From: an uncultured Pelagibacteraceae bacterium
Lineage (GTDB): Bacteria; Pseudomonadota; Alphaproteobacteria; Pelagibacterales; Pelagibacteraceae
Length of the DNA: 64,000 nt
Assembly (NCBI GenBank): GCA_902610755.1
Contig: CACLWW010000001.1
Coordinates: 1 to 64,000, forward strand
Direction: 5' to 3'
A program made the position numbers and the translations under genes. Each line of letters opens with the position of its first letter. Positions within the stretch are counted from its first letter, which is position 1. Below the pieces are notes generated by a model. The model saw only the letters and a program-made list of their open reading frames with translations, had not been told where the DNA came from and made no database searches. Below, in pieces: positions 38,279 through 54,535 of this stretch.

Positions 38279-38827
38279 ATGAGCTGGACACCAGAAAAAG
38301 TAAATAAACTGAAAGAATTGTGGGGTAAAGGCAATACTGCGAGCCAAATAGCTGAAATACTAGGTGGAGTTACTCGTAATGCCGTTATCCGCAGAATGGC
38401 TGTCTTAGAATAAAGATAGCCATTCTGTCTCTGCATCGGTAAAGCGCATCGTTTAAATCTTTCGGGAAAATTTCAGACAAGAAAAAGCTCGCAGTTAGCT
38501 ACTAATGTCAATGTTAATGAAAATAAAGTCTCTCGTAAAAATTTAAGAAGAGGTAAATTCAAATCTTTAATTATAGATAAAGATTTTGAACCTGAAAATC
38601 CTAAACAGCTTGAGGAGCTTGATGAAAATTCTTGTAAATGGCCGATTGGACACCCCGATGAGGATAATTTTTATTTTTGTGGGAGAACTTCATTGAAAGA
38701 TTTTTCTTATTGTAAACTACATTTATTATATGCATTCCAGCCAAAAAATAAAAAAGAAGATGTTTTGGATAAAGACAAAGACAATGAAGTGCCCAAATTT
38801 ATTAGAAGAAAGATTAAATCAGCTTAA
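38279..38827 (+). CDS. gcrA: GcrA cell-cycle regulator, interrupted by a 48-nt in-frame hairpin insert with TAA and TAG; absent from the ORF track
   Basis: MSWTPEKVNKLKELWGKGNTASQIAEILGGVTRNAVI | 48 nt | GKAHRLNLSGKFQTRK…CKWPIGHPDEDNFYFCGRTSLKDFSYCKLHLLYAFQP…KSA*; same frame both sides. Confidence 0.88.
38390..38437 (+). other. 48-nt stop-containing hairpin insert inside gcrA (stem 38392-38406 / 38413-38427, 6-nt loop)
   Basis: cagaatggctgtctt-agaata-aagatagccattctg; ATC codons at 38387-38389 and 38435-38437. Confidence 0.85.
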
Positions 38828-38828
38828 A

Positions 38829-39095
38829 CTACTCGCCTAATATTTTTTTCTTAGCCGCTGCAAATTCCTCATCATTTAAAATTTTTTTTTCGTGTAATTC
38901 TTTTAGCTCGTTAAGTTTGCTAATTAAATCCTCTTGATTGTTAGAATTATTTATATTCAAATTATCTTCTTTAGTATTATCTAAATTTTTGTTGGCTTTT
39001 TTTGCTTCCATGCCTGTATTTATAGCTCTAAATGCAATATATAAAACAAAACATAATATTAATCCGATCAAAGTATAAACTATAGATGTAACCAT
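38829..39095 (-). CDS. Small membrane protein with C-terminal SHOCT-like domain
   Basis: N-terminal TM; DLISKLNELKELHEKKILNDEEFAAAKKKILGE. Confidence 0.8.
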   Translation of the reverse strand: MVTSIVYTLIGLILCFVLYIAFRAINTGMEAKKANKNLDNTKEDNLNINNSNNQEDLISKLNELKELHEKKILNDEEFAAAKKKILGE

Positions 39096-39104
39096 AAAAT
39101 TAAT

Positions 39105-40052
39105 TTACTCTTTTTTTGAATACTCTCCTTCATTCCTCCACATATAAGAATATTTATTTACCTCATCTTCAAATTTCAATGAGCAATTTAAGTTGAAGTC
39201 AATATTGCTTTTGTATTTTCCAGATAAAACATTATCATACTTTAATAATCTTAACTGATCATTCGTAATTAGTGGTCTTGGTAAAAGTTCAAATATGTGT
39301 GCAGTCATTCTAGCAAGGGAGATTGGCATTGGAAATAACAGCCTTTTTTTTTCTATTGAGGAAAGAAGTTTTTCTAAAATTTCCTTGAATGACATTTCAT
39401 CTGGTCCTGCAAACTCAATTATATTTTCTCTAATATCATCGGTTATTATCTTTGTTATGGAATTTGTTAAGTCTGAGCAATGAATAGGTCTAAACTTTGT
39501 TTTGCCATTATAGTAAATTGGAAAAATTGGCAACAATCCCAACAATGTCATTAATTGCGTAGTGAAATTATCGTCGACAGAATATACTATCGAGGGTCTG
39601 AGAATTACAGCTTTGTTGAAATTATTTAAAATTTCTTTTTCACCTTTTAACTTACTTTGAGCATAAATTGACTCCCCTGCATTTTCAATACCAAGGGCAG
39701 ACAAGTGAATAAATTTTTCTAAATTATATATCGAGGCTAATTTTGAAATCATTTTTGGAAATTCAATATGGATATTGGTAAAATTATTTTTTCCTTTTTC
39801 AAATAGTATACCAACTAAATTTACACATAGATCGGCTTGGCGAAACAATTTTTTTAACAAATCATAATTAAAAATACTTCCTTCCACTATTTCAAGGTAT
39901 CCAGGGTTAGCTTGAGTTTTAATTATATAGCCTTTTTGATGGATGTTTCTTGTTAATGCTGTCACTTTAATATTACTTTTGGTTAAACTTCTAATTAAAT
40001 TTCTACCGATTTGACCACTTGCGCCAAAAATTAGACAATTTTTTGGTTTCAT
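39105..40052 (-). CDS. NAD(P)-binding protein, complex I NDUFA9-like / NmrA-like
   Basis: CLIFGASGQIGRNLIRSL, YAQSKLKGEKEIL, ILRPSIVYS. Confidence 0.88.
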   Translation of the reverse strand: MKPKNCLIFGASGQIGRNLIRSLTKSNIKVTALTRNIHQKGYIIKTQANPGYLEIVEGSIFNYDLLKKLFRQADLCVNLVGILFEKGKNNFTNIHIEFPKMISKLASIYNLEKFIHLSALGIENAGESIYAQSKLKGEKEILNNFNKAVILRPSIVYSVDDNFTTQLMTLLGLLPIFPIYYNGKTKFRPIHCSDLTNSITKIITDDIRENIIEFAGPDEMSFKEILEKLLSSIEKKRLLFPMPISLARMTAHIFELLPRPLITNDQLRLLKYDNVLSGKYKSNIDFNLNCSLKFEDEVNKYSYMWRNEGEYSKKE

Positions 40053-40072
40053 ATATATATATTTTATTAGTT

Positions 40073-40678
40073 ATGGATATAAAAGTTCACAAAACTGATT
40101 TACCAGAAGATCTTGATGTTGGCAATAGGGTCGCTGTTGACTGCGAGTTTATGGGACTTAATTTTCAAAGAGATAAATTATGTTTGGTTCAAATATCTTC
40201 AGGAAATTCTGACGCCCATATAGTTCAATTAGATCGAAGTGAGTACAAGGCGCCAATGTTAAAAAAAATTTTATCTGATAAATCGATTAAAAAAATTTTT
40301 CACTTTGCAAGAGCAGATCTTTCTTTTATTAAGAAATATCTTTTAGTTGAAGTCAATAATATTGAGGATACGAAGCTTCAATCAAAACTAGCAAGATCTT
40401 ATACAGATAAACACGGGTTAAAAGATCTAATTAAAGAATTTATAGGTGTTGACATAAGTAAGCAATATCAAAGTTCAGATTTTGGAGGAGAGTTATCGCA
40501 AGCACAAATAAAATATTGTGCAAATGATGTTTTGTATTTACATAAAATAAATGATGCCCTAACAAAAATTCTAAAAAGAGAAAAAAGATATCATCTTTAT
40601 GAAGATTGTTTAAAATTCATAAACACTAGAGTCAATTTAGATTTAGCATCTTTTTCGGATGATATTTGGTCACACTAA
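40073..40678 (+). CDS. Ribonuclease D-like 3'-5' exonuclease (short form)
   Basis: VAVDCEFMGLNFQRDKLCLVQIS, FHFARADL, QIKYCANDVLYLHKI. Confidence 0.92.
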   Translation: MDIKVHKTDLPEDLDVGNRVAVDCEFMGLNFQRDKLCLVQISSGNSDAHIVQLDRSEYKAPMLKKILSDKSIKKIFHFARADLSFIKKYLLVEVNNIEDTKLQSKLARSYTDKHGLKDLIKEFIGVDISKQYQSSDFGGELSQAQIKYCANDVLYLHKINDALTKILKREKRYHLYEDCLKFINTRVNLDLASFSDDIWSH

Positions 40679-41658
40679 TGAAAAAAGATATTTATAAAAA
40701 AATTGCAAAAGATGTAATAAATACAGAAATAGTTTCATTAAATAAATTGAAAAAATCTTTAGATGCAAATTTTAAGAAAGCTGTAGAAAAAATTTTAGAC
40801 TGTAAAAAAGGAAAAGTAATTTTATCTGGAGTTGGAAAGTCGGGAATTATAGCAAAAAAAATTGCTTCCACATTAGCATCAGTTGGTACTCCATCTTTTT
40901 TTGTAGACGCTAGTTCTTGCTCTCATGGAGATCTAGGACAAATTAGTTCAAATGATGTTTTGATACTGATAAGCAATAGTGGGGAGTCGGTTGAATTAAA
41001 AAATATTATACAATTTGCAAATAGAAATAAAAATATTACTTTAATCGGAATAGTATCAAAAAAAAACTCACTTTTATACAAAGCTTCTGATATTAAAATT
41101 TTAACTCCTGAAGTTAAAGAAGCCGGTCCTGGAAGTATAGTTCCAACATCTTCGACTATTGTTCAATTAGCAATAGGTGATGCAATAGCAATTGCTACTA
41201 TGAAACAAAAAAAATTTGGACAAAAAGATTTCAAAAAGTTTCATCCTTCAGGGAGTTTGGGATCTAAATTAAAATCTGTAGAAGATCTTATGCTTACAGG
41301 AAAAAAAATACCGTTTATTAACGAAAATTCTAATATGAAAAATGCTTTAAAATTTATTTCACAAAAAAAACTTGGTGTTCTTGTTGCTAGAAATAGTAAG
41401 AAAAGAACAACTGGAATTATAACTGATGGACAGATTAGACGTAAAAGTGAAAAAAAAGGAAATCTTCAAAAACTAAAAGTAAAAGATGTAATGACAAAAA
41501 ACCCAATTTCTATAAATGCTGAAGTTTTGGCAGCTAGAGCATTATCTTTGATGAATTTAAATAGAATTACATTTTTGTGTGTACACAAAAAAAAACAAAA
41601 AAATAAAACAATTGGAGTAATTCATATTCATAATATTCTTGAGAATAATATTCAATAA
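40678..41658 (+). CDS. kdsD: Arabinose-5-phosphate isomerase (KpsF/GutQ)
   Basis: SIS domain GVGKSGIIAKKIASTLASVGTPSFFVDASSCSHGDLGQI, tandem CBS. Confidence 0.93.
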   Translation: MKKDIYKKIAKDVINTEIVSLNKLKKSLDANFKKAVEKILDCKKGKVILSGVGKSGIIAKKIASTLASVGTPSFFVDASSCSHGDLGQISSNDVLILISNSGESVELKNIIQFANRNKNITLIGIVSKKNSLLYKASDIKILTPEVKEAGPGSIVPTSSTIVQLAIGDAIAIATMKQKKFGQKDFKKFHPSGSLGSKLKSVEDLMLTGKKIPFINENSNMKNALKFISQKKLGVLVARNSKKRTTGIITDGQIRRKSEKKGNLQKLKVKDVMTKNPISINAEVLAARALSLMNLNRITFLCVHKKKQKNKTIGVIHIHNILENNIQ

Positions 41659-42249
41659 ATGAGAAATAAAATTTATATTCAATTATTTTTAATATTTATT
41701 TTGTTAACTATATCTTTGACGATATTTCTTAAATATTTTAAAAAAACAGACTTCGAAAAAGGCGTAAAAAATAGTGTAGAACAAGCGACAATCGTTGGTG
41801 AAAGTTTAATAGAAGATCTTAAATACCTCTCAACTGACAAAAAAGGTAATAAGTACAAAATAGAGGCAAAAAAAGGAAATATAGATAAAGTTAACCCGGA
41901 CGTTATTTATTTAGAAAACGTAAAAGCAATAATCTCGTTACAGAATTCTGAATTCATATCAATAGAATCAAAATTTGCAAAATATAATACAAAAAGTTTT
42001 GATACTTTATTTAATGATACTGTTTCTATTGACTATGGTGAGCATCTTTTAAAAAGTGAGTTTTTAGATTTATCTTTTGAAAATAGCTTAGTTTCTATAT
42101 ATGATAATGTTCGATACCTCAGTGGAATTTCGTCATTAAAAGCAGACAAAGCTGAGATAGATATATTAAACAAAAAAACAAAAATTTTTATGGAAGATCC
42201 AAAAAAGAAAATTAAGATTAATAATATGTCAAAAAATGGCAATAATTAA
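41659..42249 (+). CDS. lptC: LPS export periplasmic protein LptC-like
   Basis: Single N-term TM; YKIEAKKGNIDKVNPDVIYLENVKAII; between kdsD and lptB. Confidence 0.8.
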   Translation: MRNKIYIQLFLIFILLTISLTIFLKYFKKTDFEKGVKNSVEQATIVGESLIEDLKYLSTDKKGNKYKIEAKKGNIDKVNPDVIYLENVKAIISLQNSEFISIESKFAKYNTKSFDTLFNDTVSIDYGEHLLKSEFLDLSFENSLVSIYDNVRYLSGISSLKADKAEIDILNKKTKIFMEDPKKKIKINNMSKNGNN

Positions 42250-43012
42250 AAAATTTAGGATTAAAAGCTTTAAACAAAAAAAACCAATTTTAAAGTTGGA
42301 AAATGTTTCATTATCATTTGGAAACAGACAAATTTTAGAAAATATTAACTTCGAAATTAATAAAGGGGAAATTTTTGGAATGCTTGGGCCTAATGGAGTT
42401 GGAAAATCTACAATCTTTAACCTGATAACAGGCCTAATTTCACCTGAAAAAGGCTCTATTTTCATTGGGGGAGAAAAAGTAAATAATTTTCCAATATTTC
42501 TTCGAACAACTAAATTTAAAATTGGTTATGTACCACAATATGGTGGCTACTTTTATGATTTAACTCTATTTGAAAATCTTAAAGCAGTTGGTGAAATTCT
42601 TATTAAAGATCCAAGAGAAAGAATAGAAAAAATAAATTATCTTACCTCAAAATTCGATCTTGAGTCAATTCGAGACATTAAAGCAAAATTTTTGTCTGGG
42701 GGTCAGAAGAAAAAGTGTGTTATTGCTATGGCTCTTCTTGGAAATCCTGAATTACTTTTATTAGACGAATGTTTTGCGGCTTTAGATGTTATGACAATAA
42801 AGATGTTACAACAAATTATAGTTAACCTTCAATCTGAAAATAGAATCACGATTTGTATATGTGATCATCAAGCAAGAGACCTTCTGACTTGTGTTGATGT
42901 GGCAGTAGTTTTGTCAGATGGAAAAGTAATTGCTAAAGGAACCCCTTCAGAACTTGTAAAAAATCCAAATGCTCAGTCCGCTTACTTTGGTGATTCTTTC
43001 AAATTTAATTAA
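42236..43012 (+). CDS. lptB: LPS export ABC transporter ATP-binding protein
   Basis: GMLGPNGVGKSTIFNLITGL, FLSGGQKKKCVIAMALLGNPELLLLDECFAALD. Confidence 0.92.
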   Translation: MAIIKKFRIKSFKQKKPILKLENVSLSFGNRQILENINFEINKGEIFGMLGPNGVGKSTIFNLITGLISPEKGSIFIGGEKVNNFPIFLRTTKFKIGYVPQYGGYFYDLTLFENLKAVGEILIKDPRERIEKINYLTSKFDLESIRDIKAKFLSGGQKKKCVIAMALLGNPELLLLDECFAALDVMTIKMLQQIIVNLQSENRITICICDHQARDLLTCVDVAVVLSDGKVIAKGTPSELVKNPNAQSAYFGDSFKFN

Positions 43013-43017
43013 ATCTA

Positions 43018-44355
43018 ATGGGAAAGAGATTAATTATAAATAATAAATATAATTCATTCAAAAAAACTATTTTTATAGACGGCGACAAGAGTATCTCTAT
43101 AAGGTCATTATTACTTGGATCTCAAGCTTTTGGTAAAACATCTATAAAAAATATATTATTGTCAGAAGACATTATTAGTTCGATAAATTGTTTAAAAAAA
43201 TTGGGCGTGAAAATTACTTTAAATAAAAAAGACTGTTCTATTTATGGAAAGGGTCTTAACGGATTTGAATTTAAAAAAAATATTGTTTTAAATGCCGGGA
43301 ATTCAGGAACGTTTGCAAGATTAATTTTAGGACTTTTAGTAAAATCTCCTTATTACATAAAATTAATTGGCGATAAAAGCTTGTCGAAGAGAGATTTTGA
43401 GAGAGTAGTATTGCCATTACAACAAATGGGAGCAAATTTTAAAATGAATAATAAAAAAACTTTGCCTTTACAAATAATCGGGTCTACTTTTACAAATCCT
43501 ATTCACTATTTCGAAAATAAAGGATCTGCGCAATGCAAAAGTACTGTGATGTTAGCTGCATTAAATTCACCAGGTGAAACGGTAATAGAAGCAAAAAAAT
43601 CTAGGGATCATACTGAAAATATTTTTAAACATTTGGGAATTCCTATCATTGTCAAAAGAAACAAAAATAATGATGAAATTAAGATACAAGGTCAAAAATT
43701 TTTTAAGTCTTTTAAATATAAGGTCCCATCTGACCCAAGTTCATGTGCTTTTTTTATAGTGCTTACACTTTTATCAAAAAATTGTAAGTTAAAAATTAAG
43801 AATGTAAATATAAATCAATCTCGAATTGGATACATAAAAATTTTAAATAAAATGGGTGCAAAGATTAAGATAAAAAATATAAGAACAAAATACGGCGAAA
43901 AACAAGCTAATATTTTTGTTCAAAGTCAACCTAATTTAAAAAAGATCAACTGTCCCTCAAGTCTAAATAGTAATTTGATTGATGAGTTTTTGATTATGTT
44001 TTTAGTAGCTGCAAAAGCAAAAGGGGTTTCGACTTTCACAAATTTAAGTGAGCTTAACAAAAAAGAAAGCCCTAGGTTAAAGTTGGGATCAAAATTACTA
44101 AACCAATTAGGAATTAAAAATAAATTGACAAAAGACTCAATAAAAATATTTGGAAATCCAGGTATTAATTTAAAAAAGAGTATTCATATTAAAAATTATT
44201 TTAAAGACCATCGAATATTTATGACCTCTGTAATCGCAGCATACACCTTTGGTGGAAGGTGGATAATAGATGATGTGAGCTCGTACAAAAGCTCGTTTCC
44301 GTCTTTTTTAAATATAATAAAAAAATTAGGTTATAAATTTAAGGTTGGCAAATAA
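43018..44355 (+). CDS. aroA: 3-phosphoshikimate 1-carboxyvinyltransferase
   Basis: DGDKSISIRSLLLGS, NAGNSGTFARLILGL, GDKSLSKRDFERV. Confidence 0.95.
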   Translation: MGKRLIINNKYNSFKKTIFIDGDKSISIRSLLLGSQAFGKTSIKNILLSEDIISSINCLKKLGVKITLNKKDCSIYGKGLNGFEFKKNIVLNAGNSGTFARLILGLLVKSPYYIKLIGDKSLSKRDFERVVLPLQQMGANFKMNNKKTLPLQIIGSTFTNPIHYFENKGSAQCKSTVMLAALNSPGETVIEAKKSRDHTENIFKHLGIPIIVKRNKNNDEIKIQGQKFFKSFKYKVPSDPSSCAFFIVLTLLSKNCKLKIKNVNINQSRIGYIKILNKMGAKIKIKNIRTKYGEKQANIFVQSQPNLKKINCPSSLNSNLIDEFLIMFLVAAKAKGVSTFTNLSELNKKESPRLKLGSKLLNQLGIKNKLTKDSIKIFGNPGINLKKSIHIKNYFKDHRIFMTSVIAAYTFGGRWIIDDVSSYKSSFPSFLNIIKKLGYKFKVGK

Positions 44356-44468
44356 TTGGTGTATTAAAACAGTAAAAAGCCTCTAATATCTTTACTTGAT
44401 TTAAATTTAACTAATTCTGGCTTGATTAATTCTTTTTTTTTATCTAAAACATCGAGATTTTTAAAATT

Positions 44469-46196
44469 ATGGAAATATTCAAAAGCGCTAAAACAGAAGC
44501 ATCTAAAGAATTTGAAAAATTATTAGACACTCAATTCACAAAAAATCAAAGCCTTGTGGAAGGTAAAATAATTGAGGGAGTCGTTACTAAAGTAACAGAA
44601 AAATTTGCCTTTTTAGATTGTGGTCTTAAATCGGAAGCAATTTTAGATATTAATGAATTAAAAACCATCGGACTTGAAAAAAAAATTAAAGTTGGTGAAA
44701 AAATTCAGGTTTTGCTAGAACGTCTCGAGGACCGAGAAGGAAATGTTGTCGTTTCAGCAAGTAAAGCACAAAAGATAAAAGGGTGGAACATTTTACTAGA
44801 GTGTTACGAAAAAAATGAACCTATAACTGCACGGTTTATTAGCCGAACTAAAGGAGGAGCTATATGTGAACATATTGATACAGGTTTTTTAATGTTTTGT
44901 CCCGGAAGCCAGATTCACACAACACCTCTTAAGGATATCACTGAACTTTTTAATGAACCACAAAAATTTGCAATTATAAAAGCTGATAAAGCCCGAGGAA
45001 ATTTGTGTGTTTCAAGAAGACAAATACTAGAGTCAGGCAAAAAAGAAGACAAAGCAAAAATTATTGAAAAGTATAAGGTTGGATCGATTCTGAAAGATGC
45101 GATCTGTAAGGGTGTTGGGTCATTTGGAGTTTTTTTTAATGTTAACAACGAACTTGATGTACTGGTTCACCAATCTGAGGTGAGTTATTCAAGAGTGAAT
45201 GATTTACAAGATGTCTTTTCTGTCGGTGACAAAAGTGATTTAAAAGTCATTTCAATTGATAAAGAAAAAATGCAAGTTGGATGTTCAATAAAACAGCTTT
45301 CTCCTGACCCATTTGAAAAAATTTCTAATTACGAACTTAACAAAAAATATGAAGCAAAGGTTATTAAACTTATGGAGTTCGGAATTTTTGTAGAGCTCGA
45401 GCCAAATTTAACGTGCTTATTACACTCGAGCCAAATAAGTTGGTCAAAAAAAAATGTTAACCCAAAAAAAGCTTTTAAAGTAGGTAGCATGATACCTGTA
45501 ATCATTACGGAGATAGATAATGAAAAACGAAGGATTGCTGTATCTCATAGGCTAACACTTGATAATCCTTTCAAAGTTTTAGCTGATAAGAGTCCAGTCG
45601 GAAGTACAATTGAAGGAATAGTAGAAAGTTCAAATGATTATGCCATTTATGTTAAATTGAATGGATACGATATTTCAGGATTTTTACACTGTAATGATCT
45701 TCACTACACAAATGATCCTGAAACTGAATTAAAAAAATATAAAATTGGAGATAAAATTAAAGTTAAAATTTTGGAAATTAAAGAAGATCAACAAAAGGTT
45801 AGGGTTGGTCTAAAACAAACTCAAAAAGATCCTTTTGACTACTTCAAAGATAAAAAAATTAATGACACTATTACGGTAAAAATAATATCATCTGACAATA
45901 AAGGTTTAGTCGTTCAGCCAGAAGGATGTGAAATGAATGTATTAATTAAAAAATCTCAAATAGCTGTAAACGCAAGCGATGCCCGTCCATCAAGATTTGT
46001 TGGTGGAGAGCGTATTGATTCTGCAATAGCTGAACTGAACCTTGAAAAAAGAAAAGTATCGCTAAGTATTAAACTTCTTGAAGAAATACAAAAAAAAGAA
46101 GCTCTGGACAAATACGGTGCTGAAGGTTCTGGAAAAAATCTACCTTTTTCGACCTTATCTGATAAACTGAAAAAAAAAGATAAAGAAAAAAAATAG
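44469..46196 (+). CDS. rpsA: 30S ribosomal protein S1
   Basis: Repeated S1 domains; follows aroA. Confidence 0.95.
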   Translation: MEIFKSAKTEASKEFEKLLDTQFTKNQSLVEGKIIEGVVTKVTEKFAFLDCGLKSEAILDINELKTIGLEKKIKVGEKIQVLLERLEDREGNVVVSASKAQKIKGWNILLECYEKNEPITARFISRTKGGAICEHIDTGFLMFCPGSQIHTTPLKDITELFNEPQKFAIIKADKARGNLCVSRRQILESGKKEDKAKIIEKYKVGSILKDAICKGVGSFGVFFNVNNELDVLVHQSEVSYSRVNDLQDVFSVGDKSDLKVISIDKEKMQVGCSIKQLSPDPFEKISNYELNKKYEAKVIKLMEFGIFVELEPNLTCLLHSSQISWSKKNVNPKKAFKVGSMIPVIITEIDNEKRRIAVSHRLTLDNPFKVLADKSPVGSTIEGIVESSNDYAIYVKLNGYDISGFLHCNDLHYTNDPETELKKYKIGDKIKVKILEIKEDQQKVRVGLKQTQKDPFDYFKDKKINDTITVKIISSDNKGLVVQPEGCEMNVLIKKSQIAVNASDARPSRFVGGERIDSAIAELNLEKRKVSLSIKLLEEIQKKEALDKYGAEGSGKNLPFSTLSDKLKKKDKEKK

Positions 46197-46208
46197 GTAA
46201 AATATAAA

Positions 46209-46496
46209 TTGCCGATAACTAAGTCAGAATTAGTAAAACAGCTGTCTAAAACTTACCCCAATCTATTGAAAAAAGATTTAGAGAAATTTTTTGATATATT
46301 CATAAACGAGGTAAAATTAGCTCTTAAAAATGATGAAAGAGTTGAACTTCGTGGGTGGGGTGTTTTTTCTACCAAAAACCAAAAAAGCAAAACTTCAAGA
46401 AATCCGAAAACTGGAGAGAAATTAATTGTTGAAGAAAAAAAAAGCATAAATTTTAAAATGTCAAAAGATCTGTTTAGTGAGATTAACAATGAATAA
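46209..46496 (+). CDS. ihfB: Integration host factor beta / HU-family DNA-binding protein (TTG start)
   Basis: SELVKQLSKTYPNLLKKDLEKFFDIF…RVELRGWGVFSTKNQKSKTSRNPKTGE. Confidence 0.92.
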   Translation: MPITKSELVKQLSKTYPNLLKKDLEKFFDIFINEVKLALKNDERVELRGWGVFSTKNQKSKTSRNPKTGEKLIVEEKKSINFKMSKDLFSEINNE

Positions 46497-47163
46497 AAAA
46501 AAAATATTTATTGCTGTAGATACTAATACAGTCTCCAAAGCAAAAAAAATAATTAGAGACACACAAACAAAAAAAATTCAAGTAGGTTATAAATTTGGCC
46601 TTGAATTTTTTTACTCAAAAGATGGGAGAAAATTTCTTTCAAAATTAAAGAATCAAACAATTTTTTTAGATTTAAAACTTAATGATATCCCAAACACTTT
46701 AAGATCGGCGATGAGATCATTAAAAAACTTAAGGGTTGCATATTTGACTGTTCATTTAAGCTCTGGATTAAATGCTTTAAAGGCATTAAAAAAAGAGAGT
46801 AAAAATATTAAAATTGCCGGTGTAACGACACTAACCTCGTTAAATAATAATGATTTAAAAGAGATTGGATATAATAAAAAGGTCAACGAACTTGTTAGGC
46901 ATCAAGCCAAACTTGCCACAAAAGCAAAATTAGATGCAATAGTCTGTAGTGGACATGAAATAAGATCAGTTAAGAGAGTGTTTAAAAAAGAAATAATTAC
47001 ACCTGGAATCAAGTTACACAATACAAAAAATGATCAAAAAAGAGTTATGAAGCCCAATGACGCTTTTGCTGCAGGAAGTAATTGGTTGGTAATGGGTAGA
47101 TCAATAACAAATGGTAATATTAAAAAGAATATTAAGAATTTACTAGAAATTTTAGAGGACTAA
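46489..47163 (+). CDS. pyrF: Orotidine 5'-phosphate decarboxylase
   Basis: FLDLKLNDIPNTLRSAM, CSGHEI, TPGIKLHNTKNDQKRVMKPNDAFAAGSNWLVMGRSIT. Confidence 0.94.
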   Translation: MNKKKIFIAVDTNTVSKAKKIIRDTQTKKIQVGYKFGLEFFYSKDGRKFLSKLKNQTIFLDLKLNDIPNTLRSAMRSLKNLRVAYLTVHLSSGLNALKALKKESKNIKIAGVTTLTSLNNNDLKEIGYNKKVNELVRHQAKLATKAKLDAIVCSGHEIRSVKRVFKKEIITPGIKLHNTKNDQKRVMKPNDAFAAGSNWLVMGRSITNGNIKKNIKNLLEILED

Positions 47164-47780
47164 TGCAATCTAAGATTTGTGGTGTAAAGGATAGTGAAAC
47201 ATTAAACTTTTTAATAAACTATAAATACCCACCTGAATTAATTGGCTTTATTTGTAATTATCCAAAATCTAAAAGATTTGTTGATATAGATTCTCTTAGG
47301 AAACTTCTCAAAGTTGATAATCAAAAGTCCCGATTTGTTTCTGTACTGGTAAAACCTGATGAATTTATTTTAAACGAAATGCAAAAACTAAATTTTGATT
47401 ATTTTCAAATTTATGATTGTAATCCTGATGAAATAAAATCAATAAAAAAGAAATATAACAAAAAAATAATTTCTGCAATTACCGTAGAGACTAAAGAAGA
47501 TATTCTCAAATATAAGGAATACGAGGATTGTTCTGATATAATATTATTTGACAGTAAGGGGTATGAAAAATCATTAGAATTTGACCACACTTTAATGAAA
47601 AATGTGCCAGTCAATATTAATAGGATGATAGCTGGAAACATTAAACACAACGATAATCTTGATAAGTTTATGAAAATTTGTAATTATATTGATATATCTG
47701 GGGGCTTAGAGACATCTGGATTAAAAGACATTTCTAAAGTAAAAATTTTCTTAGACAACGTTAAAAAATTAAATGATTAA
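47163..47780 (+). CDS. trpF: Phosphoribosylanthranilate isomerase
   Basis: SKICGVKDSETLNFL, IAGNIKHND, DISGGLETSGLKDISKV. Confidence 0.92.
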   Translation: MQSKICGVKDSETLNFLINYKYPPELIGFICNYPKSKRFVDIDSLRKLLKVDNQKSRFVSVLVKPDEFILNEMQKLNFDYFQIYDCNPDEIKSIKKKYNKKIISAITVETKEDILKYKEYEDCSDIILFDSKGYEKSLEFDHTLMKNVPVNINRMIAGNIKHNDNLDKFMKICNYIDISGGLETSGLKDISKVKIFLDNVKKLND

Positions 47781-48987
47781 ATTAAAGAAAAAAACCCCTC
47801 TTATTGACCAGCACGATAAGTTTGGATTTTATGGAAATAAATTTGGTGGAAACTATTGTGCAGAAACAATGCGAAAACCAATTGAGGATTTATCTAACCT
47901 TTTTGAAAAATTAAGAAAAGATAGGAAATTTCTTAAAAAAAGAGATAATTATTTCGAACATTATCTAGGTGGTGAAACGCCCTTTTTTAAATTAGAAAAT
48001 TTAACTAGACATTTAGGTGGAGCTCAAATTTGGTGTAAAGACGTGTCAGCTATAAACGGTGATGCGCATAAGGCATATCACGCAACGGTCAACGCATTGA
48101 TTTGTAAAGAAAGTGGTAAACGTTATATAGCAGGTGATACTGGTGCTGGAATGTTCGGAAAAAATCTTGCAATGGCAGCAAAAAAAATGAATTTAAAGTG
48201 TAAGATTTTTATGGGAACAAAAGATATTTCTAGACAAGCACCTAATGTAAAATTCATGCGTGACGCAGGTGCTGAAGTTGTGCCTGTTGACTCAGGTTCA
48301 AAGACTTTGGTGGACGCTGTTTCTGAGTGTATGCGCCACTATGTTTCAAACTGTGATAATACACATCTAGCGGTAGGTTCAGCAATTGGCTGCAATATTT
48401 TTTTAAAAATTTGTGCATGGTCAACTTCTCAAATTTCAAGAGAATTAAAAAAACAATTAGTAAAAGAGTTTGGTAAAATACCGAAACTAAAATTAATCAA
48501 TGTCATAGGTGGGGGAAGTAGCGCTCTAGGATTTTGGAATGAGTTCATTGACTTCGATAAAAAACATGTTGAGCTAATTGGTGTTGAAGCAAAGTATGCT
48601 GCACCTTTATCTACAAATGCAAAAGTAGCTATTTTGCATGGGGCTGCACAATATTGTTTGACTGATAAAGAAGGTCAAATAGCAGAAACCCATTCATTGA
48701 GTGCGGGTTTAGATTATCCAGGTTCGAGTCCATTACATGGATTATTAAAAGACTCTGGAAGAGCGCGATACACTAATGCTTCAGATAAAGAGGCATTAGC
48801 TGCTTTCAAGTTAATCACTAAATTAGAAGACATAAGACCAAGTTTGGAACCAGCGCATGCATGGAGCGAATGTATTCGTTTAGCTCCAAAATTGAAAAAA
48901 AGTGATGTGATTGTAGTCAATAATTGTGGAAAAGGTTACAAAGATAAAAAGATCTATATTGAGCAATTAGGATATTATCCGAAATGA
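47773..48987 (+). CDS. trpB: Tryptophan synthase subunit beta
   Basis: FGFYGNKFGGNYCAETM, GDAHKAYHATVNAL, GGGSSALGFWNEF. Confidence 0.95.
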   Translation: MIKLKKKTPLIDQHDKFGFYGNKFGGNYCAETMRKPIEDLSNLFEKLRKDRKFLKKRDNYFEHYLGGETPFFKLENLTRHLGGAQIWCKDVSAINGDAHKAYHATVNALICKESGKRYIAGDTGAGMFGKNLAMAAKKMNLKCKIFMGTKDISRQAPNVKFMRDAGAEVVPVDSGSKTLVDAVSECMRHYVSNCDNTHLAVGSAIGCNIFLKICAWSTSQISRELKKQLVKEFGKIPKLKLINVIGGGSSALGFWNEFIDFDKKHVELIGVEAKYAAPLSTNAKVAILHGAAQYCLTDKEGQIAETHSLSAGLDYPGSSPLHGLLKDSGRARYTNASDKEALAAFKLITKLEDIRPSLEPAHAWSECIRLAPKLKKSDVIVVNNCGKGYKDKKIYIEQLGYYPK

Positions 48988-49784
48988 AAAATTCTATTAA
49001 CAACGCCTTTAAGGTTGCAAAAAAAGAAAATAGACCTGCGTTAATATCTTATACAGTTTGTGGCGATAATACTAAGGACAAATCATTACAAATACTTAAT
49101 TCAATATCAAAGGATTTAGATATCGCAGAATGGGGAATACCTCACAACTGCCCAACTGCAGACGGTAAAGATATTCAAAATAGCTCTTATAGAGCTTTAC
49201 AAAATGGTATTCGATTAAATGATATTTTTAAACTTGTAAAAAGATTTAAGAAAACAAAACCATCTAAACCAATGATATTAATGGGTTATTACCAAATGAT
49301 ATTTAATTATGGAGATAAAAAATTTATTCGAAAATGTAAAGAATCTGGTGTTGATGGGTTAATTGTTGTTGATTTATCATTTCCTGATAATAAAAATTTT
49401 GCCAAATTGTGTAAAAGAAATTCTATTTGTTTCGTTCAGTTGATAGCTCCTACTACAACTTTGAAAAGAATGAAAGAAATAATAAAGAGTTCACATGAAA
49501 TGATTTATATGATTTCAACTATATCAACTACAGGGTCTGCATTAAAATATAGTATAAAAAGAATTATTAAAAATTATAATGTTATAAAAAAAATCAAACC
49601 ATCAAAAAATGTCGTAATAGGTTTTGGTATTACCGAAAAAACTATTTCGAATCTGAGATCTGCTGACGGTCTAGTTGTTGGTAGTGCAATTTGTCGAGAA
49701 ATAACAAGAAGTTTAAAAGATAGACAAAATCCCGTCACAAATGTAAGTAAATTAGTAAGGAAACTAAAAAACAAAATTATATGA
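48984..49784 (+). CDS. trpA: Tryptophan synthase subunit alpha
   Basis: AEWGIPHNCPTADGKDIQNSSYRALQNG, MGYYQMIFNYG, VIGFGITEKT. Confidence 0.95.
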   Translation: MKNSINNAFKVAKKENRPALISYTVCGDNTKDKSLQILNSISKDLDIAEWGIPHNCPTADGKDIQNSSYRALQNGIRLNDIFKLVKRFKKTKPSKPMILMGYYQMIFNYGDKKFIRKCKESGVDGLIVVDLSFPDNKNFAKLCKRNSICFVQLIAPTTTLKRMKEIIKSSHEMIYMISTISTTGSALKYSIKRIIKNYNVIKKIKPSKNVVIGFGITEKTISNLRSADGLVVGSAICREITRSLKDRQNPVTNVSKLVRKLKNKII

Positions 49785-50713
49785 ATTGGTTGAAAAAAAC
49801 TCTTAGATTTGGTGAAAAGATAAAACAGTTATTAAAAAAAAGACCATCAAAGAGTGATATAGAAAATAGTGATTGGGCATCTTGCTGCAAAGGCCCAATT
49901 TTAAAAAAAGATCTGGAAGAAAATTTATGGGTATGTCCAGGTCCGTGTGGAAAACATTTTAGAATCAGTCCTATTCAAAGATTTGATCTTTTTTTTGGAA
50001 AAAATAATTATGAAATATTAAAAACTCCCATACCTGCGGATGATCCTTTAGAATTTGAAGATTCTTCTCCATATATAAAAAAATTAAACTCTGCGAGAAA
50101 GAAAACAAATCAAGATTGTGCAGTTATGATCGCCAAAGGTAAGGTTGAGAATATAGATGTGATAGTAGGTGCAATCAACTTTGCTTTCATGGGTGGTTCA
50201 ATAGCAACTAGTGAAGGTGAAGCAATTATTTTTGGTATTCAAAAAGCTGTTGAAGAAAAAAAACCTTTTGTGATTTTTACTTGTGGTGGTGGTCAAAGAA
50301 TGCATGAAAGTCCCCTAGCCCTTGCGCAAATGACAAGAACTACTATGGCAATTAATGACTTAAAAGAGAATAAATTACCTTATATAGTGTGTCTTACAGA
50401 TCCAACTGCTGGAGGGATCACAGCATCTTTTGCGATGCTTGGTGACATTCAAATTTCTGAACCCGGAGCCCTAATTGCATTTGCAGGTAGAAGAGTTATT
50501 GAGGGAACAGTTAAAGAAGAATTACCTGAAAACTTTCAAAAAGCTGAGCATGTTCTTGATTGTGGATTTGTAGATAACATAATACCTCGTAAAGATTTAT
50601 CAAAAAAAATTAGCCAGGTATTATCTATATTGCTAAAGAAAAATTCTGAAGTAAATTCAGAGAATAATGAACAAACTCCAGAATTTAATATCGGAACTAG
50701 AGAAGCATCATAA
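49781..50713 (+). CDS. accD: Acetyl-CoA carboxylase carboxyltransferase subunit beta
   Basis: FMGGSIATSEGEAI, TCGGGQRMHESPLALAQM, LTDPTAGGITASFAMLGD. Confidence 0.95.
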   Translation: MNWLKKTLRFGEKIKQLLKKRPSKSDIENSDWASCCKGPILKKDLEENLWVCPGPCGKHFRISPIQRFDLFFGKNNYEILKTPIPADDPLEFEDSSPYIKKLNSARKKTNQDCAVMIAKGKVENIDVIVGAINFAFMGGSIATSEGEAIIFGIQKAVEEKKPFVIFTCGGGQRMHESPLALAQMTRTTMAINDLKENKLPYIVCLTDPTAGGITASFAMLGDIQISEPGALIAFAGRRVIEGTVKEELPENFQKAEHVLDCGFVDNIIPRKDLSKKISQVLSILLKKNSEVNSENNEQTPEFNIGTREAS

Positions 50714-51935
50714 AAAAAAATTAGACCTTTCTTTAGGTCGAACTTTTAATCTTTTAAAAAAACTTGGAAACCCTCAAGACAAACTTAAAAATATAGTTAC
50801 TGTAGTAGGAACGAATGCAAAAGCAAGTATGTCATACAGTCTAAAGGCAATCCTTAATCAAGCTGGATTAAAGTGTAATATGTACACCTCTCCACATCTT
50901 CAATCCTATACTGAACGTTTTGTATTTAATGATACTGAAATTGATGAAGAAAATCTTTTTAAATTATTAGAGGATACAGAAAAAGTCTTAGGAGATGATA
51001 ATGCGACTGTTTTTGAAATACTTACATGTGCTTTTTTAAAATATGCAGAAAGCTTCAAAAACAATATCAATATAATTGAAGCTGGATTATTTCATCAATT
51101 CGATAGTACCAATGTTTTTAAAAAAAATTTAATGACATTGATTGGTGTGATACATAACGATCATTTTCAATGGTTAGATAATAAGAGTATTGACGGAGTT
51201 ATACATGAAAAAACTTGTAAGCTTTTAAACTCTAATATTTTTGTAAACAAACAGGTGAATGATGAAATAGGTAAAAAAGTGGAAGAATCTTTAGCTCAAA
51301 ATACATCAAATAAATATTTTTTTGGAAAAAACTTCAATATCTCAAGATCAGATAATAGCTTCATTCAATACCAAGATGATATTGGTGAATTGATATTACC
51401 AGAACCCAATATTCTAGGAGACCATCAACTTAATAATATTAGTACTTCAATTGCAGCATCTAGAAAAATATTTAATGTTAAAGATCAAGATATCAAATCA
51501 GGTATTCAAAATATCTCTCTTAAAGGAAGATTGCAGGAAATAAAGTCAGGAAAAATCAAAAAAATTGCAGGTAATAATAGATTGGTAGTTGACGGAGGCC
51601 ATAATATTTCAAGCAGTTATGTTATTGCAAACTGGATTAAAAAACAAAATCAAAAAGTTAATCTCGTTGTAGCTATGATGAAAGATAAGGATCATAAAGA
51701 ATTTATGAAATCTTTTGAAGGTCTAGTAAACTCAATTACTTTAATTGATATTCCTAATCAAGATGGAGGAATTTCCAAAAAAGAATTGAAGGAAAAAATA
51801 AGCGATCTCAATTTTACATTAAAAATATCCGATAGTATCGATAGTGCAATTCGATCAAATTCAAAAGATATAAATGCTATTACCTTAGTGTGTGGATCGC
51901 TTTATTTAATTGGGGAAGTCTTAAATTTAAATTAA
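50667..51935 (+). CDS. folC: Bifunctional folylpolyglutamate/dihydrofolate synthase
   Basis: VVGTNAKASMSYSLKAIL, TSPHLQSYTERF, LGDHQLNNISTSIAA. Confidence 0.93.
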   Translation: MNKLQNLISELEKHHKKKLDLSLGRTFNLLKKLGNPQDKLKNIVTVVGTNAKASMSYSLKAILNQAGLKCNMYTSPHLQSYTERFVFNDTEIDEENLFKLLEDTEKVLGDDNATVFEILTCAFLKYAESFKNNINIIEAGLFHQFDSTNVFKKNLMTLIGVIHNDHFQWLDNKSIDGVIHEKTCKLLNSNIFVNKQVNDEIGKKVEESLAQNTSNKYFFGKNFNISRSDNSFIQYQDDIGELILPEPNILGDHQLNNISTSIAASRKIFNVKDQDIKSGIQNISLKGRLQEIKSGKIKKIAGNNRLVVDGGHNISSSYVIANWIKKQNQKVNLVVAMMKDKDHKEFMKSFEGLVNSITLIDIPNQDGGISKKELKEKISDLNFTLKISDSIDSAIRSNSKDINAITLVCGSLYLIGEVLNLN

Positions 51936-52249
51936 GTATTTTCTTTAATCCAAGAAACAATATTAGATTTAGTGGTTGCTCCAACTTTTGTCGCCTTTAA
52001 TTCTCCACCAGAAAATAGGAGCATAGTTGGTATACCTCTGATTCCGTATTTTGTTGGAGTGTTAGGTTCGTTATCAATATTGTGTTTTGCAATTACAACA
52101 TCAGACATCTCATTAGAAATTTCTTCTAAGATTGGTCCGATTTGTTTGCAAGGTCCACACCACTCTGCCCAGAAGTCAACTATAACTGGTTTGCCAGCTT
52201 TAATAACTTCTGCTTCAAAATTTTCATCTGTTACGTTTACAGTAGCCAT
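51932..52249 (-). CDS. trxA: Thioredoxin
   Basis: VDFWAEWCGPCKQIGPILEEI, YGIRGIPTMLLFSGGE. Confidence 0.96.
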   Translation of the reverse strand: MATVNVTDENFEAEVIKAGKPVIVDFWAEWCGPCKQIGPILEEISNEMSDVVIAKHNIDNEPNTPTKYGIRGIPTMLLFSGGELKATKVGATTKSNIVSWIKENT

Positions 52250-52315
52250 AGTATTTATATATAAAGATTGGATTTATATTCAAGCCCAAAATGATTAAAA
52301 TTTATTTTATCCACA

Positions 52316-53746
52316 TTAAACATTTTGATATTTCTTCTCAATGGACATTACAAAATTATTTAGTTGGTCCAAAAATTTGAGATTTTTCTCGTCGTTTTCA
52401 TTGGTAAACTTATCTCTTAAATTGTCGCACTCAAAATAAAATTCTTTGCAAGTCCACCACTTCTCTTTTTTATCACTAAGAATTCTCTTAGCTATATCTT
52501 GCTTCACCTGTTTTAAAATAGATTCGGGCAGAACATGTGGAGCTTCTTGAAATATTATTTTTTTACCAAATCCAACAAGTCTTTCATCCTCAAACTTATC
52601 CAGCAGTCTTAGTTTATCTGACCAAGATGCCTCGTGCCATTTTGAGAATAAATTTGTATCTTTGTTTGGAGTGAACTTTTTATATATACTTTCTTCTGGA
52701 AGTATATCCTCTTGAGATTTTGATTGTTCTTTTTCTTCAGCAATTTCTCTTAAAGCGGTTAATATATTTTCTGAAAACTTTTCGTTACTGTTTACTAATT
52801 CAGCTCTTTTTATCAGAATATTTTTATCTATTGCATTATAGGGTTCAACATCCATACCAAATTTTTTATCCAAAATTATAGGTGCTTTGTTTGATCTGAT
52901 AGTTCTTAAAAATTTGGGTGATTTTTTCATCTCAGCTTTTAAATCATTGATCGACATTTTTAGAAGAGGCTCTACATCAACCCTTAAGTCGACTGCTTGA
53001 CCCCACTGATATATTGGATGGGTACAGAATTTCGGGTGGAGAGGAGCACAAAGGTAAAGTCTTGATTTTCCATAGAAATACTCATTTAAAGTAATAACCT
53101 TTTCTTTTTTAATAATTGTTTCTGTGTCTAGCTTATTTGCAGTTTTTAAAAAATCGTTCCAAGTTTCTGGCTGCTTTTTCTTAATTAAGCCTAGTACTTT
53201 AAGTGTGAGCTCAGCATCAAAAATTGCACTATGAGCTCCGCCAGATTCAAAACCATTCATTCTTGCTAAAGACTCTAATTTCATCACCGCGTTACCCTTC
53301 TCGTTAATTTCAGTGTTTAATATTTTATTATCAATAGCGAAAGCACCTCTTGCTATATTTAGTCCATCGTGTCTTTTGTTTGGTGAGGCATTAGTAATAT
53401 AGGGGTATCTAATACCCTTAAAAAACTCTTTTCTAATCATTTCATCATCAAAACCTATGTTTGACCATCCCATGAAGATTGCGGGACTCCACTTTTTAAA
53501 AATTGCTTCAACTTGATTTAACATCTGATAATGGCTTAGGTTCGTTTTTGTTAGCAAATCTACGTTTGTTTTATTAACGAGCAGAGCCATACACTGGGGT
53601 ATTTCACCTTCGGGTAGTCTACATCTTAGATTAAATCTATCTTTTTCTTTAAAGTTTTCATCTACCAATATTCCTCCAATTTCAATTATGCTGCCAAAAT
53701 CAGTAGAAGAACTTGATGATTCAATATCCCAAATAACAATATTCAA
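52316..53746 (-). CDS. sbcB: Exodeoxyribonuclease I
   Basis: VIWDIESSSSSTDFGSIIEIGGI (DEDD ExoI), MGWSNIGFDDEMIRKEFF, SAIFDAELT. Confidence 0.9.
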   Translation of the reverse strand: MNIVIWDIESSSSSTDFGSIIEIGGILVDENFKEKDRFNLRCRLPEGEIPQCMALLVNKTNVDLLTKTNLSHYQMLNQVEAIFKKWSPAIFMGWSNIGFDDEMIRKEFFKGIRYPYITNASPNKRHDGLNIARGAFAIDNKILNTEINEKGNAVMKLESLARMNGFESGGAHSAIFDAELTLKVLGLIKKKQPETWNDFLKTANKLDTETIIKKEKVITLNEYFYGKSRLYLCAPLHPKFCTHPIYQWGQAVDLRVDVEPLLKMSINDLKAEMKKSPKFLRTIRSNKAPIILDKKFGMDVEPYNAIDKNILIKRAELVNSNEKFSENILTALREIAEEKEQSKSQEDILPEESIYKKFTPNKDTNLFSKWHEASWSDKLRLLDKFEDERLVGFGKKIIFQEAPHVLPESILKQVKQDIAKRILSDKKEKWWTCKEFYFECDNLRDKFTNENDEKNLKFLDQLNNFVMSIEKKYQNV

Positions 53747-53851
53747 TTTTTTTCCTTTTAACTAAATGCTTTTTGTGAAGAAGATATGATCTCGCATCTA
53801 AACAAGTAGCAAGTAAATTTGTTAGTATATTAATTTAATAATTTGTCAATT

Positions 53852-54535
53852 TCATTTGACAAAAAGGTTGTAAAATTTTTCAACTCTCTCAAGAAATTTA
53901 TTTTGATAATCTAAAAGTTCATTACCTTCAATTTTAAAATCTTGAAATAGTCTGTCTACTGTACACATCAAAACAACTCCCTGTGTGATGTTGGAGTTAT
54001 AAACTGTATTATGCGCTAATGAATAGGCTCCTATTTGTAAAAAATAGTCTTCAATATACTCTTTCTTTTTTGGTTTATTACTTTGTTTAAAATCTAAAAT
54101 TGTCTCTCTACCTTCATAAACACCTATACAGTCAGCTGTGCCAGCATATTTGTTGGGGTAATATAGTGTTGCTTCAGCACCCCAAACCTCTGTTAGTTTG
54201 TTTTTTAGGCCATTATCTATAATTTCTTCTGCCATTTTTTTTGAGTGATTTTTATCATCAATTAAATCTTGATTAAGCTTTCCATGTAGAAACTCTTCAA
54301 TAAACTTGTGAATTGAGCTACCTCTACTTGATGCTTCTTTTTTGATTCTATCTGCCTCAAGCTTTCCGACTCTTTCCTTCCATGCAGCTAATGCAGCTTT
54401 GTCCTCTTCACTTTTTGTTGCTGAGAGTATAGTTGTAACAGAGGGTAAGTTAGATCCATCTAAAGAGTAGTGCCTTTTTCCTTGAATTAATGCTCGAGTA
54501 GAACTTGGATAATTAAATTTTTTATTCCATTCCAT
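53852..54535 (-). CDS. PD-(D/E)XK superfamily nuclease (MGME1/Cas4-like fold)
   Basis: SSIHKFIEEFL, KYAGTADCIGVYEGRETILDFKQSNKPK, YFLQIGAYSLAHN. Confidence 0.82.
   Translation of the reverse strand: MEWNKKFNYPSSTRALIQGKRHYSLDGSNLPSVTTILSATKSEEDKAALAAWKERVGKLEADRIKKEASSRGSSIHKFIEEFLHGKLNQDLIDDKNHSKKMAEEIIDNGLKNKLTEVWGAEATLYYPNKYAGTADCIGVYEGRETILDFKQSNKPKKKEYIEDYFLQIGAYSLAHNTVYNSNITQGVVLMCTVDRLFQDFKIEGNELLDYQNKFLERVEKFYNLFVK

Follow-up and report, generated by a model that had tools for sequence, protein, structure and literature searches.

Candidate translational-bypass elements interrupting gcrA and other conserved genes of SAR11 bacteria

The window, a stretch of 64,000 nucleotides belonging to an 867-kb, 74%-complete SAR11 (Pelagibacteraceae) assembly coded G000, contains a gcrA gene interrupted near its 5' end by a short hairpin-forming insert. 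The features of this locus, all on the forward strand, are the following.

38279-38827, + strand: gcrA, interrupted by a 48-nt hairpin insert, with its stop codon at 38825-38827
38279..38389, + strand: gcrA segment 1, codons 1-37 (MSWTPEK...TRNAVI), ending in the putative take-off codon; PF07750 match 1-43, 44.2 bits
38387..38389, + strand: putative take-off codon ATC (Ile), identical to the ATC at 38435
38390..38437, + strand: 48-nt insert, made up of a non-coding gap and the putative landing codon; missing in the nearest relatives, 49 nt in G083
38390..38392, + strand: CGC, in the A site during take-off; the least used sense codon of G000 (42/209,121 codons)
38391..38428, + strand: hairpin of 16 bp with a 6-nt loop (38407-38412); -25 kcal/mol, z -5.8
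38411..38413, + strand: in-frame TAA stop within the gap
38417..38419, + strand: in-frame TAG stop within the gap
38435..38437, + strand: putative landing codon ATC, matching the take-off ATC
38438..38827, + strand: gcrA segment 2 (GKAHRLNLSGK...RRKIKSA), 129 codons and the stop; PF07750 match 37-152, 73.5 bits

The coordinates given in the initial annotation, with the 48-nt insert, its two stops and the matched ATC codons, are all confirmed in the sequence, and the stem described there as 15 bp around a 6-nt loop comes to 16 bp once a terminal G-U pair is included, a further G-U lying within the stem. None of 200 shuffled sequences folded equally well, and the first stop is the eighth codon of the gap. 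Beyond the insert the frame resumes with GGT AAA GCG CAT and stays open to the stop codon, in keeping with the roughly 130 codons first estimated. A continuous GcrA had been expected upon removal of the insert, and indeed the joined protein scores 133.6 bits against the GcrA HMM (PF07750), as compared with 44.2 and 73.5 bits for its halves. The insert occurs only once in the assembly, and a GcrA profile search of this 74%-complete sequence found no second gcrA.

Alignment to close relatives showed the insert to be lacking in the nearest uninterrupted ones, G008 (L005) and L059, and present in the sister species G083 (AG-453-K22), where it measures 49 nt, retains both flanking ATC codons despite the 1-nt longer gap, and carries an A to T change in the loop that closes one extra pair. 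A degenerate pattern (NAVI...GKxHR with 26-56 extra bases), used to find gapped gcrA genes, matched 11 SAR11 single-cell genomes as well as six unrelated chance places; a match of the insert in G161 was likewise attributed to chance. Including the window, 12 SAR11 genomes thus carry a hairpin insert at one shared codon boundary of gcrA, each with an open frame in segment 1. Ten of these belong to a second type (ATH|GGG CGC ...hairpin... |GGA AAA, 42-48 nt) whose hairpin is unrelated to that of the window, CGC at the A site being common to both. Within a 399-genome sample of the genus gcrA was present in 335 genomes and interrupted in at least four; all 18 genomes checked for their weak GcrA scores proved intact, and the other weak cases reflect divergent N-terminal domains or contig ends. 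Insert lengths among the 12 carriers range from 42 to 49 nt and represent all three residues modulo 3, so that neither read-through nor a single frameshift would restore GcrA, and both were rejected, the more so as stops lie inside the gaps.

Two observations on the gene itself were made among the relatives. In L008, L109 and L113 a quite different N-terminal domain (of the TRNSIIGKASRL type) is found on an ordinary gcrA body, which suggests domain exchange by recombination. Two C-terminal types, CKWPIGHP... and CKYM..., separate L027-L029, L114 and L135 from most other GcrAs, and inserts are present with both.

Related elements are found in three other genes, in each case at a conserved Gly codon. 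A scan for hairpins breaking open frames located them in rpsA (ribosomal protein S1) of G574, G700 and G242, at KLDKVR-G-NACVSRR, and in a histone-deacetylase-family gene of G574, at RPP-G-HHA, while the chromosomal phage-type exonuclease (phrog_298 family) of G281 and G306 carries the same hairpin as gcrA at LQL-G-AYTLAHN. The family thereby amounts to 18 distinct elements of 42-50 nt in 14 genomes, with at least eight distinct hairpin sequences. When the element is skipped, rpsA yields a full-length S1 (TIGR00717, 14-534), the deacetylase-family gene a Hist_deacetyl domain (PF00850, 20-303), and the exonuclease a protein that aligns end to end with intact relatives at up to 90% identity. The joined proteins align with intact homologues without gaps, and the empty site in uninterrupted homologues is a single Gly codon. 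Two of these genes are intact in the window and serve as controls.

44466..46163, + strand: rpsA (ribosomal protein S1), empty site of the G574/G700/G242 element; in L038 the tblastn pieces are directly adjacent
53867..54535, - strand: phage-type exonuclease (phrog_298 family), empty site of the G281/G306 element; 1-223, no stops

Joints of the form GG[GA]...hairpin...GG[GA], with both codon match and hairpin required, were lastly sought across 2.42 Mb. There were 40 matches at or below -23.4 kcal, several of them one place under more than one locus id, and all fell in gcrA, rpsA, the exonuclease or the deacetylase gene. The next four matches, at about -15 kcal, are chance-like, and this clean energy gap rejects a chance origin of the joints. 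In Rfam no element rose above the gathering score, the passing hits being unrelated tRNA and SRP, and CM matches under 24 bits were mostly intergenic terminators. Separately, an exonuclease homologue at G036:C12:3795-4474 appears as two overlapping matches, probably owing to a frameshift and not to an element.

The codons bordering the gaps follow two patterns. Sixteen of the 18 elements pass from GGG to GGA, both read by tRNA-Gly(UCC) (only UCC and GCC tRNA-Gly were found in G000 and in about 67% of G574), and the other two pass from ATC to ATC. All 16 GGG-type elements, across four genes, complete the landing codon with an A; in uninterrupted gcrA that Gly codon is GGA or GGG in 28 of 66 cases. 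Gaps between take-off and landing codons span 39-47 nt, and every one contains a stop at which the upstream frame terminates, the first stop lying at least one codon beyond the position directly 3' of the take-off codon. The A site holds CGC in 15/18 elements, the codons met across the family being CGC, TGC, GCG or GGC, so that CGC was rejected as a universal A-site codon; it is the second rarest sense codon in G574, and the GC-rich stems may contribute to its occurrence. All hairpins begin within the take-off codon or 1-4 nt after it, with energies of -23 to -37 kcal.

In GGG-type gcrA (n=10) the coding sequence directly upstream forms an additional 5' stem-loop of 8 bp (GGCGGCAT/ATGCCGTC, -8 to -13 kcal), compared with a mean of -2.2 kcal for the same region in 66 uninterrupted genes. 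All eight pairs are present in 10/10 carriers versus 2/66 uninterrupted genes, counts that are not statistically independent since the ten carriers are related by ancestry or exchanged tracts. The synonymous codons of the arms are invariant across species while those of the loop vary normally, and two carriers maintain the structure with different bases. Co-conversion alone was rejected as an explanation for codon conservation upstream: L128 did exchange a tract, yet arms are invariant and loop codons vary. The 5' stem-loop is not a universal feature either, being absent from the G000/G083 type and the exonuclease and weak or absent in rpsA and the deacetylase gene.

Taken together, these comparisons point to a family of programmed translational-bypass elements in SAR11 chromosomes, skipped during translation and spread between genes and species, a reading to which we assign a probability of roughly three in four. 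A ribosome arriving at the take-off codon would stall, with the hairpin ahead and usually the rare CGC in the A site; the peptidyl-tRNA would release the take-off codon, slide past the hairpin and re-pair with the landing codon 40-47 nt downstream, where translation would resume and produce GcrA, S1, the deacetylase-family protein or the exonuclease as one unbroken chain. The extra 5' stem-loop of GGG-type gcrA might re-form in the wake of the ribosome, on the model of T4 gene 60. The comparisons establish the recurrence of the elements, their hairpin and in-frame stop, a gap length free of frame, open flanks under selection and the lack of a second gcrA in the carrier assemblies; we infer from them the sliding itself, its efficiency and the roles of the rare codon and the stem-loops. 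The initial annotation had proposed either bypass or a palindromic mobile element, and comparative support has been gained for both sides, with bypass as a proposed mechanism.

The main rival is a possible excision of the RNA, in which the hairpin would act as a minimal intron, removed from the mRNA by an RNA-processing activity that rejoins the ends before ribosomes meet it. Precise, frame-free removal would restore the protein just as well, a strong hairpin with fixed ends could signal processing, and introns and inteins typically insert at highly conserved codons. However, we are aware of no bacterial machinery that joins the mRNA ends flanking a 45-nt hairpin, and Rfam has no family matching the elements. 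Furthermore, the invariant A of the GGG-type landing codon would be needed for tRNA re-pairing and not for excision, and the window's type has a different, again matched, codon pair. Excision is thus regarded as unlikely, though it fares best among the alternatives to bypass.

The elements appear to move independently of their flanks and to behave like a mobile palindromic element, judging by sequence similarity. Inserts are often much more alike than their surroundings (up to 98% identity vs 62%, with flanks at 62-80%), and G574 and G700 share an identical rpsA element although the synonymous sites of their flanks approach saturation. Mapping the carriers onto a tree built from the downstream portion of gcrA takes nine changes, at least five of them forced by well-supported branches. 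Beginning at about codon +11, most of the L128 gene matches uninterrupted relatives at 97-100% identity, while agreement is much lower around the insert site and promoter, a pattern that implies exchange of a short stretch carrying the element. Recombination of such short tracts would be the route for at least part of the spread among genes and species. The matched GG...GG ends could also represent a target-site duplication, a point against bypass. The four target genes lie at 38.3, 44.5, 53.9 and 70.5 kb on the window's contig, all within some 32 kb of one neighbourhood (window 38279-54535, continuing on contig C1 to ~71.4 kb, with L310/L311 in G281 and L263/L268 in G574). No element turned up outside this region when most of G000 and two thirds of G574 were scanned.

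Islands were observed in this neighbourhood. A variable defence island, missing in G000, adjoins the targets just past the interrupted exonuclease of G281 (L310:12494-17818); it encodes DruA (Druantia) and an HSP90-like ATPase weakly similar to MzaB. G574 has an island at nearly the same location (L263:322-3126), with an ARPP-1-domain protein and one of 525 aa to which no Pfam or PADLOC family corresponds, and without hits in G000.

Such high insert similarity between species with diverged flanks speaks for recent spread, as would be expected had a palindromic mobile element recently broken each gene, leaving pseudogenes with truncated products only. Against this stands purifying selection past the stop. 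The cleanest case is the G000/G083 pair, in which the insert is as diverged as its flanks (94% identity for both), and where gcrA beyond the gap differs by 25 synonymous and 4 non-synonymous substitutions (dN/dS 0.029). For this region dN/dS lies at 0.04-0.21 in six further carrier pairs, the median for uninterrupted genes being 0.10, and rpsA of G574 and G700 beyond its 46-nt gap gives 0.059 at dS 2.4, values to be read with the proviso that for recently transferred inserts part of the flank divergence is older than the insertion. In addition, every other codon of the interrupted rpsA, gcrA, exonuclease and deacetylase genes is intact, stem arms upstream of the site are maintained, and no intact second gcrA was found in any of the 12 carrier assemblies, including those of G574 (97% complete) and G700 (91%). 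Loss of function is thus very improbable.

Even less credible is a two-piece protein, whose halves would be translated separately by re-initiation after the stop and act together. The upstream frame does always end in the gap, and non-canonical starts are conceivable, but the window has no ATG, GTG or TTG close to where the downstream frame begins, and the splits fall inside the GcrA helix-turn-helix (in its recognition helix), the deacetylase RPPGHHA motif and an S1 repeat, with conserved residues on both sides, positions at which two separate pieces are unlikely to work. Least probable of all is an artefact of sequencing, MDA or assembly, to which the single-cell origin of the named carriers lends some colour, since independent cells and plates yielded at least eight distinct hairpins at one codon boundary and in four genes, with lengths in all frames and 5' stem-loops maintained. 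The artefact, isolated pseudogene and two-piece protein listed as alternatives at the outset are made unlikely by these comparisons.

Translational bypass over such distances is very rare, a 2016 review listing as established cases one gene of a phage and the mitochondria of one yeast lineage (PMC5009743). In T4 gene 60 the ribosome passes from GGA to GGA over a 50-nt gap with the help of a take-off SL and a 5'SL, gaps of up to 56 nt being tolerated (PMC11194080, PMC5009743). The SAR11 elements resemble it in the matched Gly codons of the GGG type, a gap of about 45-50 nt, a strong take-off stem-loop that overlaps or abuts the take-off codon, a 5' stem-loop just upstream (GGG-type gcrA only), an early take-off (codon 37 or 38 in gcrA, 46 in T4), and in that bypass would neutralise an insert. 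They differ in residing in at least four chromosomal genes of many bacterial species and not in a phage gene, in passing from GGG to GGA or ATC to ATC, usually with CGC in the A site, and in having the stop further on, whereas in T4 it directly follows the take-off codon. T4 bypass also draws on a signal in the nascent peptide, some 30 residues upstream of the P site; GcrA has K7, K10 and K12 at 26-31 residues before take-off, but uninterrupted GcrAs have them likewise, and no signature particular to carriers was seen. The window's own element is of the less T4-like type, with ATC codons, no 5' stem-loop and its stop at the eighth gap codon.

The byp elements of Magnusiomyces capitatus, with 81 sites in one mitochondrial genome, are thought to be bypassed independently of context, in connection with relaxed mitochondrial decoding (PMC5009743). 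They too are short frame-disrupting inserts in several conserved genes, usually with matched flanking codons, and the unused codon in their A site (PMC5009743) is comparable to the rare CGC in SAR11. The many inserts and context-free bypass of that system were not encountered here, as strong hairpins are universal and one to three elements were found per genome (1 in 840 kb of G000, 3 in 783 kb of G574). Rickettsia palindromic elements (RPE), of about 100-150 nt, are in frame and translated into protein; they are similarly palindromic and inside alphaproteobacterial coding genes, whereas the SAR11 elements are shorter, carry stops and occur in any frame. Bypass has been proposed in bacteria or their phages for a 29-nt hop in Prevotella loescheii, without follow-up, and as likely for the terminase of Streptomyces phage Hau3 (PMC5009743), in both instances for single genes. 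Within the PMC literature, which the search covered, no report of bypassing in SAR11 was found.

With somewhat less assurance than for bypass as such, we favour the broader view that these elements constitute a mobile class in bacterial chromosomes that survives inside essential conserved genes through ribosome jumping, a translational counterpart of introns and inteins that would spread between genes and species, so far within one SAR11 chromosomal neighbourhood. Bypass then appears to be used by very abundant free-living bacteria for core genes, including that of ribosomal protein S1. It would account for broken-looking genes, would imply that gene callers mis-annotate these loci, and would show selfish hairpins persisting in essential genes without splicing. 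The natural variants of the element offer material for dissecting bypass signals and make bypass testable by comparative genomics.

As to where the hairpins came from, a phage origin was rejected: 22 viral contigs with GCCCCTCTA..TAGAGGGGC resemble plain terminators, none of the viral contigs has a gapped gcrA or the G000 hairpin, and no phage record matches. Intergenic terminators of SAR11 itself (L184, L187, L190-L193) are similar to the upper stem of the elements, for example CCCCTCTAATTTTTTTTAGAGGGG, and by this resemblance are a possible source of the element hairpins.
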